The position numbers were made by a program, and so were the translations under genes. A stretch of DNA of 64,000 nucleotides from Zhongshania sp. R06B22 (GTDB lineage Bacteria; Pseudomonadota; Gammaproteobacteria; Pseudomonadales; Spongiibacteraceae): contig NZ_JBFRYB010000001.1 of assembly GCF_040892595.1 (NCBI RefSeq), forward strand, positions 1,736,001 to 1,800,000, written 5' to 3'. Below the pieces are notes generated by a model, which saw only the letters and a list, made by a program, of their open reading frames with translations, was not told the DNA's origin and ran no database searches. Below are positions 9,650 to 51,557 of this stretch, piece by piece; position 1 is the first letter of the stretch, and every line of letters begins with the position of its first letter.

Positions 9650-10597
9650 ATGAGCGATATTCTCGATCCCGAAGAACTAGAAGCTTTAATGGAGGGTGAG
9701 GATCAGAACGATCCGGGTCGCGAAAAGTATAATTTGGCCCGCCAAGATTATGCTATCCAGCGATTGATCCCCGCACTATCACTTATCCAATCACAGTTTG
9801 CTACGGCCACCCGGGATCGGATGCGCGAGTTTGTCTCCACAGTGGATGCGGTGCGAGTTGATAAAATTACCGTTATGAAATTTGACGAAATGCTGAATAC
9901 CTTACCCGCACCCTGCAGTATTTCTGTGGTGAAAGGTTTGCCAATGAACGCGAATATCTTATTGGCGTTTGAATCTGATTTGGTGTTTCAGATGGTCGAT
10001 CGCTATTTCGGTGGATCGGGCAGTATTCAAAAAGGTCAGCGCGAACTACTGTCGGTCTCTGAGTTTAGTTTTATGGAAATGCTCAGTTCGGCCTTATTAA
10101 CTGACGTGGCTAGCGCATGGAAATCGGTCATAAAAACTGAGCCCAGTATTGCCACCCAAGTAAGTGACTCGCGGATGTTGGACAGTATTGGCGAGGCTGA
10201 TTCCCTGGTGGCAACAAGATTTATTGTTAACGTTGGCGAATTTGCTGGCGGCCTTTGGTCGATAGTGCCTTGGAGTGCCATTGATGCGGTGCGTGATAGC
10301 TTAAGCGATCCGGCAAAACCTACCAGCAAAGCATCAAGTGCAGATTGGCGAGACCGTCTGCTTGAGGGGCTGGAGACCGCGCCTATTGAATTAGTCGCCA
10401 TTTTGGCTCAAACCCGAATGAGTTTAAAACGCGTTTCACTGCTTAAGGTGGGCGATGTCATCGATATTCCGTCGGCGGAAGATGTGATTCTTATGATCGA
10501 CGATACGCCGTTTATGCACGGTCGCTTTGGCAGTAATGAAGACAAGTTAGCTGTTCGCTTGATCGGTAGATCGGAAACGAATCGAAATCAGCATTGA
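9650..10597 (+). CDS. fliM: FliM, flagellar motor switch protein
   Basis: The 315-residue protein has the FliM middle domain (LIPALSLIQSQFATATRDRM, later MVDRYFGGSG and SEFSFMEML) and a C-terminal SpoA-like domain. The N-terminus (LDPEELEALMEG) is a diverged form of the CheY-binding segment usually read as LSQDEIDALL. FliM forms the C-ring wall between FliG and FliN. No che genes are visible in this window, so the state of its CheY partner is unknown. GAGGAT precedes the start. Confidence 0.95.
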   Translation: MSDILDPEELEALMEGEDQNDPGREKYNLARQDYAIQRLIPALSLIQSQFATATRDRMREFVSTVDAVRVDKITVMKFDEMLNTLPAPCSISVVKGLPMNANILLAFESDLVFQMVDRYFGGSGSIQKGQRELLSVSEFSFMEMLSSALLTDVASAWKSVIKTEPSIATQVSDSRMLDSIGEADSLVATRFIVNVGEFAGGLWSIVPWSAIDAVRDSLSDPAKPTSKASSADWRDRLLEGLETAPIELVAILAQTRMSLKRVSLLKVGDVIDIPSAEDVILMIDDTPFMHGRFGSNEDKLAVRLIGRSETNRNQH

Positions 10598-10606
10598 GGA
10601 TTGACC

Positions 10607-11011
10607 ATGACGGATCAAACTAATGACGAGCAAGTAAATGATGGCGATGCCACTAATCCAAATACGATGGCCGCAAGCGCGGAGAGCACAACTTTGAGTG
10701 ACAATAATGCAGCGCAAACTACATCTCCAAAACAAGGAAACGGACGCATGAGCAAGGATATGAGTCTGGATATGATTATGGACGTCAACGTGAGTGTCGC
10801 CGTTGAAGTGGGGCGGACCAAAATGAGTATCCGAGACCTGCGTGACTTGAATCAGGGTGCGATTATTGAGCTAGACCGAGCGGCGGGCACCCCGCTGGAT
10901 GTCCTTGTTAATGGGACCTTAGTGGCCCGTGGCGAGATCGTGGTAGTAAAAGATAAATACGGCATTATGCTGACCGAGGTGGTTGGTCAAGAAGAGCGCG
11001 AGCGTCACTAA
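10607..11011 (+). CDS. fliN: FliN, flagellar motor switch protein
   Basis: This is a 134-residue protein. The first 45 residues are a Thr/Asn/Asp-rich linker; residues 50-130 form the SpoA domain (MDVNVSVAVEVGRTKMSIRD, then LVNGTLVARGEIVVV). FliN forms the base of the C-ring with FliM and helps FliH docking. The ATG at 10607 has TGAGGA 8 bases upstream. Its stop overlaps the fliO ATG by one base. Confidence 0.95.
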   Translation: MTDQTNDEQVNDGDATNPNTMAASAESTTLSDNNAAQTTSPKQGNGRMSKDMSLDMIMDVNVSVAVEVGRTKMSIRDLRDLNQGAIIELDRAAGTPLDVLVNGTLVARGEIVVVKDKYGIMLTEVVGQEERERH

Positions 11012-11514
11012 TGGTTATTTTCGCTAGTCATCGTAGGCTCTGCACAGCAGTAAAACTATTCAGTGCTGCGACCTTTACGCTACCGCTGAAAGTATTTGCC
11101 GAAGACCTTGCGGCTAAATCTGCTGCAGCGCCAATGCCGGTGGCTCCGTCGATAGATGTAGCTGGTATGGTTGGTAGTTTACTATTTGTGATTGTGTGCA
11201 TTGTTGGCCTAACGTGGCTATTGCGTCGCAGTCGCTTGGTGTCTACAACTGGTCAGGCTGGTGTCAAACTGGTCTCGCAAATACCACTGAGCATGAAGGA
11301 AAAGTTGTTGGTAGTGCAGGTCGGCGATGAAAAATTATTGATAGGTTGTACCGCTACCGCAATCAATACGCTGCACTGCTGGGCGTCGTCGCCAGATGAC
11401 GAAAGTGATAAGCCAGCGGAGTCGCCATTTGCCAAATTGCTGGCAAAGCGTCAAATGATGGCGCCATTAAGTAAGGCCAATATAGATCTCTCAGTGCGGG
11501 GTGAGTCGCAATGA
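11011..11514 (+). CDS. fliO: FliO, flagellar export apparatus assembly protein
   Basis: The 167-residue protein has an N-terminal hydrophobic stretch and a main membrane segment at about residues 49-70 (MVGSLLFVIVCIVGLTWLLR), followed by the small FliO cytoplasmic domain (VSQIPLSMKEKLLVVQVGDE). FliO helps the FliP5 ring assemble. Position between fliN and fliP, with 1-base and 4-base overlaps, supports the call despite low family conservation. Confidence 0.88.
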   Translation: MVIFASHRRLCTAVKLFSAATFTLPLKVFAEDLAAKSAAAPMPVAPSIDVAGMVGSLLFVIVCIVGLTWLLRRSRLVSTTGQAGVKLVSQIPLSMKEKLLVVQVGDEKLLIGCTATAINTLHCWASSPDDESDKPAESPFAKLLAKRQMMAPLSKANIDLSVRGESQ

Positions 11515-12257
11515 AGCTTACCCGTATCCTGACGTTGCTATGCCTTTGTGGCTTGCCCTTGTTTGCCAATGCGGCGCCCTTAGCTTTACCTGCGGTTACC
11601 TCGGTAACTACCCCTGCAGGGGGCCAAGAATACTCGGTGTCATTGCAATTACTTGCGGTGATGACCGCGCTTACCTTGCTGCCAGCCATACTGCTGGGGA
11701 TGACGGCATTTACACGAATTATGATTGTCCTGTCGATTTTACGCTTGGCCTTAGGTACTGGCCAAACACCGTCGAATCAAATTTTATTGAGTCTGGCGCT
11801 TTTCCTTACCCTGTTTATCATGCATCCGGTAGCAGAAATAGCGTATACCGATGCCATCAAACCCTATATCGCAGAAGAAATGAGCTTTGACCAAGCTCTT
11901 GAAACGGGCTTCCAGCCCTTTCGCGAATTTATGCTCCGCCAAACACGGGAAGAAGATATCGGTCGTTTTGCAGAGATCGCTGGCCTGCAACAGCTTGATA
12001 AGCCGGAAGACGTGCCTTTCACTATTCTCATGGCGTCGTTTCTTACCAGCGAGTTAAAAACCGCGTTTCAGATTGGCTTCCTACTTTTCATCCCTTTTGT
12101 GGTTATTGATCTCGTCGTCGCCAGCGTACTGATGTCGATGGGTATGATGATGCTATCGCCCATGATGATTTCGCTGCCGTTTAAAATTATGTTGTTTGTT
12201 TTGGTGGATGGCTGGACTTTGGTGATGGGTTCACTGGCGGCGAGTTTCTATCAATGA
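11511..12257 (+). CDS. fliP: FliP, flagellar export gate protein
   Basis: The 248-residue protein carries a cleavable signal peptide (about residues 1-21), four membrane segments and the FliP signature (ILRLALGTGQTPSNQILLSL; PFKIMLFVLVDGW). Five copies form the core of the export channel with FliQ and FliR. The start overlaps the fliO stop by ATGA. The stop in turn overlaps, by ATGA, the ATG of a 35-codon frame that runs to fliQ. Confidence 0.96.
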   Translation: MKLTRILTLLCLCGLPLFANAAPLALPAVTSVTTPAGGQEYSVSLQLLAVMTALTLLPAILLGMTAFTRIMIVLSILRLALGTGQTPSNQILLSLALFLTLFIMHPVAEIAYTDAIKPYIAEEMSFDQALETGFQPFREFMLRQTREEDIGRFAEIAGLQQLDKPEDVPFTILMASFLTSELKTAFQIGFLLFIPFVVIDLVVASVLMSMGMMMLSPMMISLPFKIMLFVLVDGWTLVMGSLAASFYQ

Positions 12258-12361
12258 CGGCCTTCATGGCAAAAACGACCTTGATGGCAATGACGACCTC
12301 GGCAGCAGTAAAGATAGTGGCGGCAAAGACTATGATAATAATGTACGAGGCCAGGCAATGA
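12254..12361 (+). CDS. 35-residue ORF coupled to fliP and fliQ
   Basis: The 100 bases between fliP and fliQ are fully covered by a frame whose ATG overlaps the fliP stop (ATGA at 12254-12257) and whose TGA overlaps the fliQ ATG (ATGA at 12358-12361). The predicted peptide is Met/Ala/Thr-rich and begins MTAFMAKTTLMAMTTS; it contains an internal near-duplication (ATGGCAAAAACGACCTTG, then ATGGCAATGACGACCTCG). Most relatives have fliP and fliQ nearly adjacent. The frame could be a real microprotein or only a device that carries ribosomes from fliP to fliQ. No family is recognised. Confidence 0.4.
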   Translation: MTAFMAKTTLMAMTTSAAVKIVAAKTMIIMYEARQ

Positions 12362-42062: not shown

Positions 42063-43055
42063 ATGAGATCACGATCCCAAACACTAGCTAGAAAGTCTGT
42101 AGATGCGATGGTTGCGGCTATTGAGGCATACAACAAACCTAGCTTTTCCTACCGAGAGGAAACTTTCGCAATTCTCGCTATAAACGCGTGGGAGTTGTTA
42201 TTGAAAGCCCGGATTTTGCAGCTGTCAGGGAATAAGATCAGCTCCGTACTCAAATATGAGAAGCGGAGAAAGGCCGATGGCGAAATGTCTACTAAACTGT
42301 ACCGAGCCCAAAATAGGTCAGGGACACACCTGTCAATAGGAATGTTTAAAGCCTTTGATCTTCTGGAGCATGAATACGGTGACAGCATGCCAGCAGAGGT
42401 CAGGAAGAACTTAGAGCTCTTGTGTGAAATTAGAGACAACTCGATTCATTTTGTGAACAAAGGCTTTGATCTGGCATTGCTTGTACAGCAGCTCGGTACA
42501 GCATGTCTCAAAAATTATTTGGTGGCGGTGAGACGGTTATTTGGCATAGATTTATCAGATTATAACTTCTTCTTAATGCCTCTGGCCTTCTACGGAAGTG
42601 ATGCAGGGCTGCAGGGAGTATCTCTTAACGCCGAAGAAAAGAAGCTATCGACGTATCTGAGAGCCGAAACGCGGGTTCCAGAATCCGAAGCCGAGCCGGG
42701 CTACTACAACGTATCCTTGAACGTGAATGTTAAGTTCACTAAATCTAAGAGCGATGATTCTGAGCACGTAAGAATTACAAATGATCCAGACGCCACTCCC
42801 ATAACCATGACAGAAGAAGATGTTAGGGAAAAGTATCCTTGGGACTACAAAATCCTGACTACTAGGCTCGGAAAACGCTATTCAGATTTCAAGATCAATA
42901 AGGAATACCATGATATTCGCAAGTCGTTAGAGTCCAACGAGAATTTTTGCAACAAGCGCTACCTAGATCCAGCAGTTCGTACAGGAATTGGAAAATGTTT
43001 TTACAATCCCAATATAATTAAAGAGTTTGATAAACATTACTCGAAAAAGAGCTAA
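42063..43055 (+). CDS. cassette gene 2: DUF3644 protein with HEPN-like motif
   Basis: The 330-residue soluble protein matches DUF3644 at its N-terminus (AIEAYNKPSFSYREETFAIL; INAWELLLKARILQL). Residues 124-129 read RDNSIH, an R-x4-H motif as in HEPN ribonucleases, with the family's helical context around it. The C-terminal third (residues 200-330) is polar and charged (Lys/Asp/Glu-rich) and I do not recognise it. The stop overlaps the left core of a second attC. A role in RNA cleavage for phage or stress defence is a hypothesis from the motif and the cassette context. Confidence 0.75.
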   Translation: MRSRSQTLARKSVDAMVAAIEAYNKPSFSYREETFAILAINAWELLLKARILQLSGNKISSVLKYEKRRKADGEMSTKLYRAQNRSGTHLSIGMFKAFDLLEHEYGDSMPAEVRKNLELLCEIRDNSIHFVNKGFDLALLVQQLGTACLKNYLVAVRRLFGIDLSDYNFFLMPLAFYGSDAGLQGVSLNAEEKKLSTYLRAETRVPESEAEPGYYNVSLNVNVKFTKSKSDDSEHVRITNDPDATPITMTEEDVREKYPWDYKILTTRLGKRYSDFKINKEYHDIRKSLESNENFCNKRYLDPAVRTGIGKCFYNPNIIKEFDKHYSKKS

Positions 43056-46587: not shown

Positions 46588-47472
46588 TTAGCGCTGTACC
46601 CAATGTAATACTTCTTGTGCCTGTATGAAATCCTCTGCGTCTTTACCTTGTAGCATTGATAAGGTGGCTAGTAGTCCTGCTTCGACGCAGCTGGCTGTGG
46701 CAACGGTAACTGAGTGGGGGGCGTCCATGACTGGCCATCCGGTCATTGGGTTAAGCACATGTGGGTAGCGTAGGCCGTCTCGAAGTAAGAACCGCCGAGC
46801 ATCGCCGCTGGTTGCAAGACCGCCGCGCTGTAACTGGATGTTGGCGGACTGCAAACCGCCGATATTCTCGACACCCACTAGCCAATGTTCTTGATAACTT
46901 GGTGGTGCATTTGCAAATAAGTCGCCACCGAAATTCACCAGTATCGGCACATCGCTAAGGCTGCTCACTAACGCGGCGGCTTTGTCGACTGCATACTCTT
47001 TGCCAATACCGCCAAAGTCGATCTCCATGCCGGGTAGTAATGTTAAGTATGGGGATGACCATGTCACTTTATGCCAACCAATGATGGGCAGTATTGCAGT
47101 CACGTCATCCGGATTGGGAATGTGATTGCCGCCATCGAACTTCCATAGTCGACGTAATACCCCAGAGCTTAGATCAAATAGGCGGTCACTTATTTGATAG
47201 GCGTGGGTGGCGAAATCAATAAGATGAGTCGTCTCTTGATCTACTTCTAGGGTTTTTCCCTTGGCGTTATTAATGCGATAAACAATATTGTCGTCGCGGT
47301 AGCGACTGAATTTCGATTCTATACGCCAAGCTTCTGCGGCAACGGTTGAAGTGATTTGTTCGGCGAGGGCTTTACTGTCGCAGTCGATCAACACTTCGCA
47401 GGGGCTGGCCATCGCTTTAAAGCGACCTCTATATCCACGCTCGGTTTTTGTTACTAGCCACTCTCGATTCAT
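46588..47472 (-). CDS. ApbE-family FAD:protein FMN transferase-like protein
   Basis: The 294-residue protein has the ApbE landmarks: IDFGGIGKEYAVDKAA (residues 151-166), NFGGDLFA (180-187), GGLATSGD (217-224) and HVLNPMTG (238-245). ApbE moves FMN from FAD onto a Thr/Ser of exported proteins. Two features are odd. There is no signal peptide or lipobox, so it may act in the cytoplasm. Near the C-terminus the usual EADALAT metal motif reads EAGLLAT, with Gly at the conserved Asp position (residue 266). It is the last gene of a five-gene unit and lies 32 bases after dsbD. Confidence 0.85.
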   Translation of the reverse strand: MNREWLVTKTERGYRGRFKAMASPCEVLIDCDSKALAEQITSTVAAEAWRIESKFSRYRDDNIVYRINNAKGKTLEVDQETTHLIDFATHAYQISDRLFDLSSGVLRRLWKFDGGNHIPNPDDVTAILPIIGWHKVTWSSPYLTLLPGMEIDFGGIGKEYAVDKAAALVSSLSDVPILVNFGGDLFANAPPSYQEHWLVGVENIGGLQSANIQLQRGGLATSGDARRFLLRDGLRYPHVLNPMTGWPVMDAPHSVTVATASCVEAGLLATLSMLQGKDAEDFIQAQEVLHWVQR

Positions 47473-47504
47473 GGTGTGCGGTTTCCCTGATGGAATAAAG
47501 AGTA

Positions 47505-49352
47505 TCAGCCACCTTGATCTTCATTTCCAGTTTGGGCATCTGTGAAGGTCGAAATTATCATGTCCTTATTAAGAATTTGCGGCAGTACCACGGGGGCTTT
47601 GCCACCGCCCGGAAAGTAAACGTAAAGCGGTACACCGCTTCTGTTGTAGCGGGCTAGCAGCCTGCTGACTTCGGCGTCACGACTGGTCCAGTCGGCGACC
47701 ATATAGCGAATATGTTGGTCTGCCATTGTGTTTTTTACTAAGTCTGTGTCTAAGACTAGGCGTTCATTGGCTTTGCAGGTGATACACCAGTCCGCCGTGA
47801 CGTCGAGGAAGATTGCGCCGCCATCGTTTTGCAATGACGTGAGCCGCTCTGAACTGTAAGCCAATGCAGCGCCGTCTTTTGCAGTTGGAAATGCGCTTGC
47901 AGATAGATTCTCGGTCTCGGCCATACTGGGGCGTAACAAGGCCGAGCCGAGTATTGTGGCTGCGGCAATACCTGACACAATGGCGATACCGCGATGCCAA
48001 TGTGCTTTTTTCTTCCAGAAATACAGCGCCATACTTATAAGTAGGCAGCCGATTAACACTAACATGGCAGCGTTAATACCTGCCTGCCTTCCAAGCACCC
48101 ACAGCAACCATATGCCGGTGAGATACATAGGGAAGGCCATGACTTCTTTGAGAGTAATCATCCAGTTGCCAGGCCGTGGTAATAATCTGCCGAGACCGGG
48201 GATGATCGAGAGCAGTAAAAAGGGCGCGGCCATGCCCAAGCCCAGAGCGATAAATACCGTGAGCGCAACATACATGGGCTGTGTTAGCGCGAAGCCTAAA
48301 GACGCTCCCATGAACGGCGCAGTGCAGGGGCTGGCAACCACAACAGCCAGTACGCCGGTGAAAAATGTGCCCTTTAAGCCGCCTTTTTCTACTAGCCCTT
48401 GACCGACCCCTGCAATACCAGCACCGAACTCTACTACGCCAGAAAAACTTAGCCCCATGGCGAAGAATAAATACACGAGTGCGGCGACAAACCATGGCGA
48501 TTGCAACTGATAGCCCCATCCCAATTCTTGCCCTGACGCTCTTAGAAACATCAGTAAGCCGGCAAAAAACATAAAACTTGCCACCACACCGGCGGTGTAA
48601 ACCAGGCCGTGTATACGGCGCTCGGCCGCTGATGTATCGCTACTTTCTAAGAGGCTGATTGCCTTTAATGCGAGTACCGGAAAAACGCAGGGCATAAGAT
48701 TTAGAATGAGACCGCCGACAAAGGCCATGGCGGCCATAATCAATAAACTCGCTGGCACCGCAGCCGCGATACGAGCTGGGCCAGAATCTGTTGACGTTAT
48801 AGATTGCGCAGATGCTTGAAGCGAATCCTTTGGCTGCTCTGTTTGAGACGTCGCAGGTTTTTGCGGGTCTAGTGGTGTCACCAGACCCGCTTGGGGGTCA
48901 ACCCTAAACCAGCGGTGATCTGGGGGGTAGCAGAGGCCGGCGTCGGCGCAGCCCTGCGAAGAGATCTTGATAGTAAACGGCGCTGTTGTCGGCAAGCTTA
49001 AATGGGATTGAAGCTGCTGATAGAACACCTCTACATCACCAAAATACTCATCATGCTTTAGCTTGCCCCCAGGGAGTTGAATGGCCAGCTTTTGAGTTTG
49101 CTCATCTACGCTCCAGCTCGCCTTGAATCCCTTGCCGTAAAGGTAATAACCCTCGGCAATCTGCCAATCCATTTCTAACTTGTTGCCGCTTAGCCGCGGC
49201 TTCATTTGGTAAGCCTGATCGACGGGTAAAAAATCACCTCCGCTTGTTGTGGTGGCAACCGTCTGGTCGACCTTAGCCTGGGTATCGATTGCCCAGCAAG
49301 ATACTGAGAACAGGCCAAGTAGAATAAGCAGGGATGCAATAATTCTTTTCAT
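47505..49352 (-). CDS. dsbD: DsbD, thiol:disulphide interchange protein
   Basis: The 615-residue protein has a signal peptide (about 1-21), a periplasmic alpha domain with Cys135 and Cys141 (SQGCADAGLCYPP), a polytopic membrane domain with Cys222 (LMPCVFPVLALKA) and Cys343 (ASPCTAPFMGA), and a C-terminal thioredoxin domain with Cys523/Cys526 (DWCITCK). All six redox cysteines are present. It carries electrons from cytoplasmic thioredoxin to periplasmic partners. In this locus it could feed the TlpA-like protein and the cysteine-tailed lipoprotein upstream. Confidence 0.93.
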   Translation of the reverse strand: MKRIIASLLILLGLFSVSCWAIDTQAKVDQTVATTTSGGDFLPVDQAYQMKPRLSGNKLEMDWQIAEGYYLYGKGFKASWSVDEQTQKLAIQLPGGKLKHDEYFGDVEVFYQQLQSHLSLPTTAPFTIKISSQGCADAGLCYPPDHRWFRVDPQAGLVTPLDPQKPATSQTEQPKDSLQASAQSITSTDSGPARIAAAVPASLLIMAAMAFVGGLILNLMPCVFPVLALKAISLLESSDTSAAERRIHGLVYTAGVVASFMFFAGLLMFLRASGQELGWGYQLQSPWFVAALVYLFFAMGLSFSGVVEFGAGIAGVGQGLVEKGGLKGTFFTGVLAVVVASPCTAPFMGASLGFALTQPMYVALTVFIALGLGMAAPFLLLSIIPGLGRLLPRPGNWMITLKEVMAFPMYLTGIWLLWVLGRQAGINAAMLVLIGCLLISMALYFWKKKAHWHRGIAIVSGIAAATILGSALLRPSMAETENLSASAFPTAKDGAALAYSSERLTSLQNDGGAIFLDVTADWCITCKANERLVLDTDLVKNTMADQHIRYMVADWTSRDAEVSRLLARYNRSGVPLYVYFPGGGKAPVVLPQILNKDMIISTFTDAQTGNEDQGG

Positions 49353-49433
49353 GGAAATAAATCACCAATTAGGGTGTAAACACAAAATCGCGCACCGCGA
49401 AGTAATGCAAGTGCGCGCAATGCCGTCAACCTT

Positions 49434-49449
49434 GTGCCGTGTACGGCAC
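49434..49449. terminator. small hairpin between the DUF3570 gene and dsbD
   Basis: GTGCCG and CGGCAC pair around TGTA. No T run follows on either strand, so it is more likely an mRNA-processing or pausing element than a terminator. Confidence 0.35.
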
Positions 49450-49468
49450 TGGTGTTGATGGAGAGGGC

Positions 49469-50803
49469 TTAAAAGTCGTAGCCGATCCTTAACATCAGGG
49501 CGTCAACATCGGGATAAAGCTCTTGATTTTTTAGTTCACCAAATGCCTGCGCGGGCTCATCGCCGGTTTGTAGATAATATTCCAAGGCAACACTCCAGGA
49601 GTTCTGAGGATTGTCCTGACCGTATTCCATACCCACGGTATAGGCCATAAACTCACCTAAACGATAGTCTGCAGAAGCGTCAGAAGATGTGTCGCCCACG
49701 GTGGGTTGATCACCGGCAATAAAGAACGGCGTATAGAAGTCAGCCGCCGTCTGCTGATACACGCGCACATGGGGCTCGAGATATGAGGTCTCGCCAAATT
49801 TCCACCGGTAGCGAAGGTCTACCGTGTTGGAGCTAATCCCCCAGTCATCGACCATAAAGCGATAGGACGTATCGAGAACATTGTTACCAATAAGGCGTTT
49901 ATATTGGCCGTAAAAACTGTGTTTAAGACGACTATCAGGTCTGTTTTCATACACCACCGTGGGCAAATTAGGTTCCGCATTATTCTCAAAGAGCGGCACG
50001 CCAGTCACTGGGTCAACGACACTGATAAATTTATACGGGTCTGTTAGGTAGCCACTTGAGGAACTCAGTGAGTAACTCAGTTGAAAAAGACTGTTTTGAT
50101 CAATAATCTGGGTTACGCCGACAACAAGATCAAACAAGCTCTTGGTATCATCGCTGCCGTTTTTTACCTTATTGCCATCGTCGTCTTCATCGTCATCATC
50201 GCCTTGTATTTGCAAGGTGCCAAAGGCAACCGGTTTACCATTCACTGGCTCGACCAGATCCATGCCCAGAGATATGCCGGCCGTTAGTGTGGTATTGCCA
50301 TTATTAATGTCTTTGGCAAACGTAGAGCTGACCGCAAATGAGGTGTAGTCATACTCTGATGAGAAATTACCACCAAGCACCATGGTTAGGTCTTTTGCGA
50401 TTGGCTTTTCCCAGGCCGCGTTAACAGCGACGCGAGTATCTTTAAAGGATTCGTCAAGCGGGGTTTCGCCCGCGGGTGTGACCACCGCTGTGCCGCCAGA
50501 GGGACTGGTAAAGGTCTGCGGCTGGTTGGTAGGTACCGCTCCACTGGCAGAGGCACCCGTTAGGGTGTCGACGGTCAATTTAAGCGATAGGGTTTCATCG
50601 GTATCAATCTGTTTTTTGGCGCTAATCACCGGTTCTGTTGCCGTAACGCGATCAGTCTCGCTGTAAAACAGTAGCGCCGCACTCACGTCCCACTCACCGA
50701 CATCATGTTTGTTCTCAGCCATTGCGGCGTTAGCACCAATTAAGGCGCAACTTGCTGCGGCCAATGACAAGCGAATATTCTTTTTAGTGTTCGATTTCAT
50801 CAT
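49469..50803 (-). CDS. DUF3570 outer-membrane beta-barrel protein
   Basis: The 444-residue protein has a signal peptide (cleaved near residue 29, NAAMAEN), alternating beta strands throughout and a terminal phenylalanine (MLRIGYDF), as in outer-membrane barrels. It fits DUF3570. Residues 79-85 read DTLTGAS, which resembles the ApbE flavinylation motif D-x-x-(S/T)-G-A-(T/S). An acidic loop DDDDEDDD lies at 202-209 and could bind metal. GAGGAAG precedes two adjacent ATG codons (50803, 50800); the second is better spaced. It lies between the DUF4266 lipoprotein and dsbD. Confidence 0.82.
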   Translation of the reverse strand: MMKSNTKKNIRLSLAAASCALIGANAAMAENKHDVGEWDVSAALLFYSETDRVTATEPVISAKKQIDTDETLSLKLTVDTLTGASASGAVPTNQPQTFTSPSGGTAVVTPAGETPLDESFKDTRVAVNAAWEKPIAKDLTMVLGGNFSSEYDYTSFAVSSTFAKDINNGNTTLTAGISLGMDLVEPVNGKPVAFGTLQIQGDDDDEDDDGNKVKNGSDDTKSLFDLVVGVTQIIDQNSLFQLSYSLSSSSGYLTDPYKFISVVDPVTGVPLFENNAEPNLPTVVYENRPDSRLKHSFYGQYKRLIGNNVLDTSYRFMVDDWGISSNTVDLRYRWKFGETSYLEPHVRVYQQTAADFYTPFFIAGDQPTVGDTSSDASADYRLGEFMAYTVGMEYGQDNPQNSWSVALEYYLQTGDEPAQAFGELKNQELYPDVDALMLRIGYDF

Positions 50804-50821
50804 ACTTCCTCAAAGTTCTTA

Positions 50822-51037
50822 TCAGTTACAGCCGCAGCCACCGCCGCCAAAACCACGGCCACCGCTTGATGCTTCTTTACTGAAGTAGATGTGATCGTCC
50901 AGGGCCGAGCGCAAGGGCGAACTGTCCAGTGCCATTTCCGGCTTGGCCAAGTTCTGACGTTGCCACGGTTCAACCCCCATATTGCTGCAAGCTGCCAACG
51001 AGCTGCTGGCGAGAAGTAACAGGATAATTTTCTTCAT
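50822..51037 (-). CDS. DUF4266 small lipoprotein with Gly/Cys-rich tail
   Basis: The 71-residue protein has a lipoprotein signal (LLLLASSSLAAC, acylated Cys at residue 17) and a mature part of 55 residues, beginning SNMGVEPWQRQNLAKPEMAL and ending GGRGFGGGGCGCN. The tail has two cysteines in a Gly-rich setting at the very end. The gene is 18 bases before the DUF3570 gene. DUF4266 and DUF3570 genes are commonly paired, but the function is unknown. The tail could be a substrate for the TlpA-like thioredoxin or bind a metal. Confidence 0.82.
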   Translation of the reverse strand: MKKIILLLLASSSLAACSNMGVEPWQRQNLAKPEMALDSSPLRSALDDHIYFSKEASSGGRGFGGGGCGCN

Positions 51038-51080
51038 GGTCTTATCTCATCAATAAATGACTGATTAGGATTTGTGAGAT

Positions 51081-51557
51081 CTAGCGCGAAATGGCTGCGG
51101 AAATTTTCGCACGTAGAAACTCAGGATCTTTTTTGGTAAAGCCCATATGCTTTAGGATTAGCTCACCATTGCGATCAAACAAAAATGAGTTCGGCATGCC
51201 GCTAACGCCATACTGAGATGCAACGCTGCCTTTGCTATCAAAGAAGACTGGGAAGTTGGGTTTGAATTCGGCGATGAATTCATCTGCGTTGTCACGGTCT
51301 TCATCGAGGTTAATTGTCACCACAGCTAGATCGTCACCATATTCAGCAGGCAGATCATTCATAAAGGGAAAAGACGCGCGGCATGGGCCACACCAAGATG
51401 CCCAAAAATCTAGATAGACCACTTTGCCGCGGTAATCTTGAAGATTAAACGCAGGGTTTTCAGCGCCACCTGTGGTTTCGGCATAGCTTGTGATTGGTAA
51501 TGCCAGACTGATAATTGCAAAGGTGAAAAAGGCGAGAAGAAATCGGCGCTTATTCAT
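51081..51557 (-). CDS. TlpA-like periplasmic thioredoxin
   Basis: The 158-residue protein has a signal peptide (about 1-26) and a thioredoxin fold with the active site WASWCGPCR (Cys56, Cys59) and the cis-proline loop GVSGMPNSFLF. The TlpA/ResA group reduces disulphides in the periplasm, often for cytochrome or copper-protein maturation. It is the first gene of the five-gene minus-strand unit, 43 bases before the DUF4266 gene. DsbD encoded further down could keep it reduced. Confidence 0.9.
   Translation of the reverse strand: MNKRRFLLAFFTFAIISLALPITSYAETTGGAENPAFNLQDYRGKVVYLDFWASWCGPCRASFPFMNDLPAEYGDDLAVVTINLDEDRDNADEFIAEFKPNFPVFFDSKGSVASQYGVSGMPNSFLFDRNGELILKHMGFTKKDPEFLRAKISAAISR

Follow-up and report, generated by a model that had tools for sequence, protein, structure and literature searches.

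What do a periplasmic thioredoxin, a small lipoprotein, an outer-membrane barrel, an electron-transferring membrane protein, and a flavin transferase accomplish together, and where does the barrel acquire its flavin? The question is raised by a tandem of five genes at positions 46588-51557 of a 64,000-nucleotide stretch of Zhongshania sp. R06B22 DNA (contig NZ_JBFRYB010000001.1; this whole stretch is referred to here as the window). In gene order, the tandem encodes a TlpA-like thioredoxin, a DUF4266 protein, a DUF3570 protein, DsbD, and ApbE, with intergenic gaps of 43, 18, 116, and 32 nucleotides; all features of the locus given below lie on the minus strand. A preliminary description, made from the sequence alone, had read the genes as a unit that may run an electron path from cytoplasmic thioredoxin to the outer membrane. 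Its coordinates, strand, family assignments, and gaps agree with the open reading frame list, in which all five frames are present, and with Pfam. We consider it highly probable that the locus is a dedicated flavinylated redox system. More tentatively, and at somewhat less than an even chance, we propose that a distinct clade of ApbE, its metal ligand relocated, attaches flavin mononucleotide (FMN) to the barrel in the cytosol before export, that the flavin is then displayed at the surface, and that a sister class of barrels, having lost the flavin site, relies on a diheme cytochrome instead.

Neither the gene set nor its general meaning is new. Meheust et al. (2021, eLife, PMC8238504) found experimentally that, in C. 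luteolum, ApbE flavinylates its cognate DUF3570 at two [S/T]GA[S/T] sites, so that the earlier statement that DUF3570 is without established function is outdated. Their data include 221-227 clusters in which DsbD accompanies ApbE, DUF3570, thioredoxin, and DUF4266, with 316 more lacking DsbD, and DsbD was proposed to supply a hybrid thioredoxin/flavin chain. The electron route up to the flavin has thus been proposed in the literature; the path in the preliminary description (cytoplasmic thioredoxin to DsbD to TlpA, with an FMN-modified barrel) fits that proposal as well as the neighborhood counts below, but it was not undescribed. The text of PMC8238504 mentions no barrel for DUF3570 and refers to the outer membrane solely in connection with TonB receptors. 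The portions of that paper available to us describe neither a distinct branch of ApbE enzymes that lack signal peptides and have a shifted metal ligand nor a class of DUF3570 proteins that are without the motif and partnered by a cytochrome. It was the one match in a literature search for DUF3570 or DUF4266 by name, and the accessible part of a 2024 follow-up places flavinylated domains in the outer membrane without treating DUF3570. This analysis adds a predicted 16-strand DUF3570 barrel with its TGAS site on the side assigned as extracellular; a separate ApbE clade, lacking a signal peptide and altered at the metal site; and a degenerate-motif DUF3570 class, usually without a nearby apbE, that stands beside a diheme cytochrome.

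Linkage was surveyed in an order sample (195 genomes of the window's order) and a phylum sample (299 genomes). DUF4266 and DUF3570 are each present in exactly the same 71 genomes of the order sample. Neighborhoods were counted for 114 DUF3570 genes from 112 fetched stretches plus the window, with the first in-frame start taken as the ORF start: DUF4266 stands beside 112, thioredoxin beside 90, ApbE beside 67, and DsbD beside 22. The DUF4266-DUF3570 linkage is far beyond chance; because the genomes of the order sample are phylogenetically related, p-values overstate independence. The preliminary description had proposed this neighborhood survey, holding that the functional link would be chance if DUF4266/DUF3570 pairs rarely occurred with apbE and thioredoxin genes; by these counts, they commonly do. 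Its view of the five genes as one unit needs amending for DsbD and ApbE, which are not always adjacent.

The cbb3 maturation genes immediately upstream in the window raise the possibility that the five genes are chance neighbors or an accessory to cbb3 oxidase maturation. We give this almost no weight, given the core linkage in 71 genomes and the finding that six flanking genes (four upstream, including cbb3 maturation, and two downstream) occur near no other sampled DUF3570 locus. The locus is next to, yet separate from, the cbb3 genes, as originally described, and because those genes are near none of the other sampled loci, the adjacency has no evident meaning.

Flavin motifs and the ApbE clade

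The DUF3570 gene (49469..50803; PF12094, E = 3e-129) encodes a 444-residue predicted FMN carrier. It contains TGAS at residues 82-85 (50549..50560), a strict [S/T]GA[S/T] motif in which Ser85 is the predicted FMN site, based on alignment, the structure model, and the motif and chemistry reported in PMC8238504. Most of the 114 DUF3570 genes fall into three types: type I (22 genes, window-like, with DTLTGASxxGA in the alignment), type II (39 genes, with SGASP and mostly a second SGAS ∼20 residues further), and type III (43 genes, with YYVDxVSSASIDV and a mostly degenerate motif); the remaining 10 are unassigned. With contig-edge cases set aside and "nearby" defined as within 6 kb, the strict motif is found in 58/65 DUF3570 proteins with a nearby apbE versus 19/39 without (Fisher p = 1.4e-5). 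Where a motif-bearing type I or II gene lacks a nearby apbE, the genome usually has one elsewhere.

The window ApbE (46588..47472; 294 residues; PF02424, E = 3.5e-56) is a member of its family, scoring 191 bits against a curated cutoff of 25.6. DUF3570-adjacent ApbE proteins, however, come in two kinds that never mix among 93 aligned sequences. In 70 of these, a GGxxKE motif is combined with Gly at the position of the canonical metal-ligand Asp; the other 23 are canonical, combining GGxxKG with Asp (22) or Glu (1). The window enzyme belongs to the first kind: the Glu of K158-E159 (46996..47001), in the metal-center loop, is unique to the clade (70/70 versus 0/23), and G266 (46675..46677) replaces the canonical Asp (Gly in 70/70 versus Asp in 22/23). 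The family's catalytic His, H238 (46759..46761), is retained, as it is in all 93 sequences. In solved enzymes, the Asp coordinates one metal (D284 of T. pallidum, PMC5655446; D283 of E. coli), and H238 corresponds to His257 of V. cholerae (PMC5655446). In E. coli ApbE, E169 ligates metal 2 (PMC4767422); our alignments place E169 directly before the position of the clade Glu. From the exchange of Asp for Gly and the new Glu beside the E169 position, we infer a shift of the acidic metal ligand. With the two diagnostic columns removed, a tree still separates the two kinds on one branch (support, 0.978). A candidate covarying pair, C25/C262, was dropped, as each Cys occurs at 81% and the second-site Cys is also present in a solved canonical enzyme.

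N-termini were scored by simple hydrophobicity, using DUF3570, DUF4266, and TlpA as positive controls. Signal-peptide-like N-termini were found in 4% of clade ApbE proteins (2/45, both over-long start calls) versus 95% of canonical ones, with the controls at 84-97%. By this score, the window ApbE has no hydrophobic N-terminus, and it shows neither a signal peptide nor a lipobox; upstream of its gene, the frame remains open for only 16 codons (RSRWLILFIPSGKPHT) with no usual start codon. The window-type ApbE thus appears to stay inside the cell, in which case the barrel may receive its flavin before export. Its earlier description as a flavin transferase for exported proteins was correct as to family, but this is not an ordinary exported ApbE.

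A profile of the clade was run against the order sample, where members score >280 bits and all other matches ≤233. The clade comprises 51 genes in 41/195 genomes, all inside the 71 with DUF3570; 46 of the genes lie within 7 kb of DUF3570, and 5 lie elsewhere in DUF3570 genomes. Clade members are present in 40/42 genomes with type I/II DUF3570 versus 1/29 with only other DUF3570 (p = 3e-16, not corrected for relatedness). The three exceptions are two DUF3570 genes at contig ends (one of which, L085, shows a truncated apbE) and one variant motif, SGSSP. In the phylum sample, wherever an ApbE adjoins a motif-bearing type I/II locus (14/14), it is the clade enzyme, as it is at a Marinobacter DUF3570 locus, and no apbE was found near the type III loci. 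The clade is thus exclusive to DUF3570 genomes in the order sample but not across the phylum sample, where 5/16 clade-bearing genomes lack DUF3570.

The loss of the Asp ligand in 70/70 sequences might instead signal a changed enzyme—an FAD (flavin adenine dinucleotide) pyrophosphatase, for instance, or one acting on another cytosolic protein—rather than the FMN transferase of DUF3570, and the part of PMC4767422 available to us shows, for T. pallidum Ftp, that the fold is able to hydrolyze FAD. The catalytic His is nonetheless kept throughout (93/93), a Glu appears at the metal-center loop in the same 70 sequences, and the clade matches flavin-motif DUF3570 almost perfectly at the genome level, making a change of function quite improbable.

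As a further point for the mechanism favored below, a small EF-hand protein adjoins the clade ApbE in three genomes without DUF3570 (L229:8367-8780, minus strand; L231:4140-4541, plus strand; L233:6688-7023, plus strand). These proteins carry [S/T]GASxxMPPxxKM near the N-terminus and no evident signal peptide, which makes them candidates for a new, apparently cytosolic ApbE substrate. A wider search in the class of genome G221 retrieved no clade ApbE besides the two known.

Barrel model and predicted sidedness of the flavin site

The AlphaFold2 model of the window DUF3570 (83 sequences) is a closed barrel of 16 strands, with a predicted local distance difference test (pLDDT) score of 88.7 and a predicted template modeling (pTM) score of 0.85, and it backs the earlier assignment as an outer-membrane barrel. 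Both termini and the full set of short turns (2-5 residues) share one side of the model, and all long loops plus three short ones lie on the other. By the usual topology rule, the side of the termini would be periplasmic. TGAS is located on the long-loop side, at the predicted extracellular end of strand 3, and the long loop joining strand 3 to strand 4 (residues 84-120; 50444..50554) is likewise assigned to the extracellular side. Forty of the 45 best-conserved residues fall in the extracellular half, compared to ∼30 expected from residue counts.

The window genome holds a second DUF3570 locus (L091; G000:C1, ∼51.6-54.6 kb) with its own TlpA, DUF4266, and ApbE. The model of its type II barrel (pLDDT, 91.0) has the same topology, strands 3 and 4 carrying the two motifs at their facing ends. 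Structural matches of the window model are ordinary outer-membrane barrels (BamA, PgaA, CymA, and OmpG) and therefore support the fold, not a function. MtrB is among the Foldseek matches, but alongside many unrelated barrels, and kinship with it is not claimed. In three loci (L079:7880-10747, L080:7955-10747, and L236:7266-10004), the DUF3570 open frames extend to 912-955 residues. The C-terminal part (∼350 residues) in L079 and L080 resembles a second barrel; this extension matched no Pfam family besides DUF3570.

A flavinylated thiol-to-flavin system could also act on the periplasmic side, with the FMN loop in the barrel lumen or facing the periplasm, serving repair or metal reduction within the envelope; the cytosolic look of ApbE would then be secondary. 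Such an arrangement suits DsbD, TlpA, and DUF4266, all of which lie in or face the periplasm, and DUF3570 in one Bacteroidota locus is paired with an ApbE of the canonical, apparently exported kind. We nevertheless hold it to be unlikely, as models of two subtypes put the motif opposite the termini and short turns, and conserved residues cluster on the motif side. On balance, we lean modestly toward loading of FMN in the cytosol and, as a separate judgment of about the same strength, toward FMN at the surface.

Several points weigh against the mechanism that we favor, which is set out below. The window DUF3570 has a single strict [S/T]GA[S/T] motif, the second being degenerate (SGAV, SGGT), and 19 motif-bearing DUF3570 genes have no apbE within 6 kb. 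Five of the 299 phylum-sample genomes carry a clade ApbE without any DUF3570. Unlike the Pseudomonadota type I/II loci, the Bacteroidota locus (L004:5855-8948, the one such locus examined) pairs DUF3570 with a canonical ApbE whose N-terminus is hydrophobic; not every DUF3570 protein therefore requires loading in the cytosol. The extracellular placement applies topology rules to a model that knows no membrane. Finally, a periplasmic DUF4266 would have to reach an FMN site assigned as extracellular.

Likely cytochrome partners and other neighbors

Type III loci differ from the window type in their partners. A ∼900-residue protein with a hydrazine-synthase-alpha-like domain, usually containing two CxxCH motifs, stands beside 41/43 type III loci and 0/57 type I/II loci. 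Two small SH3/OMP barrel proteins occur as a pair beside 42/43 type III loci. The conserved type III operon consists of this diheme hydrazine-synthase-alpha-like protein, two SH3/OMP_myx_plus barrels, TlpA, DUF4266, and the degenerate-motif DUF3570 (e.g., L118:2683-8966, L127:7816-14514, and L150:7895-13807). Two recurrent type III neighbors, r414 and r271, gave no family match. Large CxxCH proteins, some of them RoxA-like or planctomycete-cytochrome-like, also occur within 7 kb of 18/39 type II genes and near 0/22 type I genes. RoxA-like (PF21419) secreted cytochromes lie beside type II loci at L091:911-3373, where one adjoins the second copy of the window genome, and at L095:1809-4289 and 10158-12353. 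The partners in related loci are likely secreted diheme cytochromes. Presence of a cytochrome where the flavin motif has been lost agrees with the interchange of flavin and cytochrome that PMC8238504 discusses.

Within the window genus, the system is missing from two of six other sampled members and is therefore accessory. Another genome of the genus carries TlpA-DUF4266-DUF3570 duplicated in tandem, the copies being equal in length (L067:7976-12234). Elsewhere in the window genome, there is a third ApbE, of the canonical kind. A promoter scan gave results at chance level, and a terminator scan gave results little above chance. Beyond the downstream side of the locus, a DUF3644 protein (PF12358; window positions 42063-43055) bears no evident relation to it.

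Proposed electron route and comparison with known systems

The remaining proteins would carry electrons toward the barrel. The TlpA/ResA-like periplasmic thioredoxin (51081..51557; 158 residues; Pfam Redoxin/AhpC-TSA) has a signal peptide and a WCGPC redox motif at residues 55-59 (51381..51395), and its closest solved structure is 3gl3, labeled a DsbE-like protein (E = 1e-36). DUF4266 (50822..51037; 71 residues; PF14086, E = 1e-24) is, as first described, a Gly/Cys-tailed lipoprotein, with the lipobox LAAC, a Gly-rich tail, and the C-terminus GRGFGGGGCGCN. Its terminal C-G-C-N (50825..50836) is a presumed dithiol or metal site by sequence and conservation: CxC occurs in the last eight residues of 103/107 relatives shorter than 115 residues. 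DsbD (47505..49352; 615 residues) is full length, as the preliminary description stated, with alpha, transmembrane, and gamma domains (DsbD_N, DsbD_TM, and Thioredoxin_7) and cysteine pairs read from the sequence; the genome encodes one other DsbD_N protein. Of the two candidates initially named for the modified or metal-binding end, the barrel would be the one modified, at TGAS, and a CxC dithiol or metal site is the likelier feature of the lipoprotein.

That CxC tail invites a reading based on metal handling, in which DUF4266 binds copper or iron, DsbD and TlpA keep the metal reduced, and the flavin barrel reduces or imports it. Twenty-five clusters in the published set carry a VIT1 iron transporter (PMC8238504), and 10 type I loci, all from genera other than that of the window, have PmrAB/QseBC-like two-component genes close by; the models that fit these genes best are the PmrAB/QseBC and heavy-metal families, with scores under the curated cutoffs. 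No metal transporter was recognized inside the window locus, though; the two-component pair is missing in the window genus; and the kinase family scores fail to identify a signal. Metal handling as the main role therefore strikes us as doubtful.

In the mechanism that we favor, the signal-peptide-less ApbE would move FMN from cytosolic FAD onto Ser85 (TGAS) of the DUF3570 precursor. Sec would export the flavinylated precursor, and the 16-strand barrel would insert with its FMN site extracellular. Flavinylation of exported proteins is thought to be extracytosolic and hence to need FAD export. Sec could plausibly carry an FMN attached to a side chain, since translocation of bulky attachments has been observed in vitro. 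Electrons would then pass from cytosolic thioredoxin through DsbD and the periplasmic WCGPC thioredoxin to the CxC tail of DUF4266, which may reach up to or into the barrel and hand them to FMN. From there, they would go to an extracellular acceptor, with a metal ion or an organic oxidant as candidates for the window type. Taken whole, this chain—a heme-free electron conduit with FMN, covalently held by an outer-membrane barrel, at its end—seems to us evenly poised between right and wrong. If true, a covalent cofactor can be added before Sec export by a dedicated cytosolic enzyme, providing a simple route to cytochrome-free flavin display on the Gram-negative surface. The sequence rules given above (GGxxKE plus Gly in place of Asp; barrels with TGAS as against SSASIDV) sort genomes into flavin and cytochrome versions.

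Among known systems, the DsbD-type clusters of PMC8238504 share with the window locus all five families, found here together, along with the DUF3570 flavinylation motif, the DUF4266 CxC, and the proposed flow from DsbD to thioredoxin to flavin. A secretion signal on at least one target, which is expected of such clusters, is present on DUF3570 (a hydrophobic N-terminus by the simple score), not on ApbE. The ApbE of the Klebsiella soluble fumarate reductase (PMC12052999) likewise lacks a signal peptide and flavinylates in the cytosol. The likeness drawn here concerns these two traits; the Klebsiella substrate remains cytosolic, whereas that of the window enzyme would be an exported outer-membrane barrel. 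With the canonical exported ApbE/Ftp enzymes of V. cholerae, E. coli, and T. pallidum, the window clade shares PF02424, the catalytic His, an HxxxPxTG-type motif, and the metal-site Thr/Ser; it differs in lacking a signal peptide, in having Gly for Asp and GGxxKE rather than GGIAKG, and in forming a separate branch. Porin-cytochrome conduits such as MtrCAB also use a barrel to bring electrons through the outer membrane to the cell exterior, an analogy rather than a membership, since the window system would employ thiol and flavin carriers instead of hemes and a barrel of 16 strands rather than the 26 of MtrCAB.

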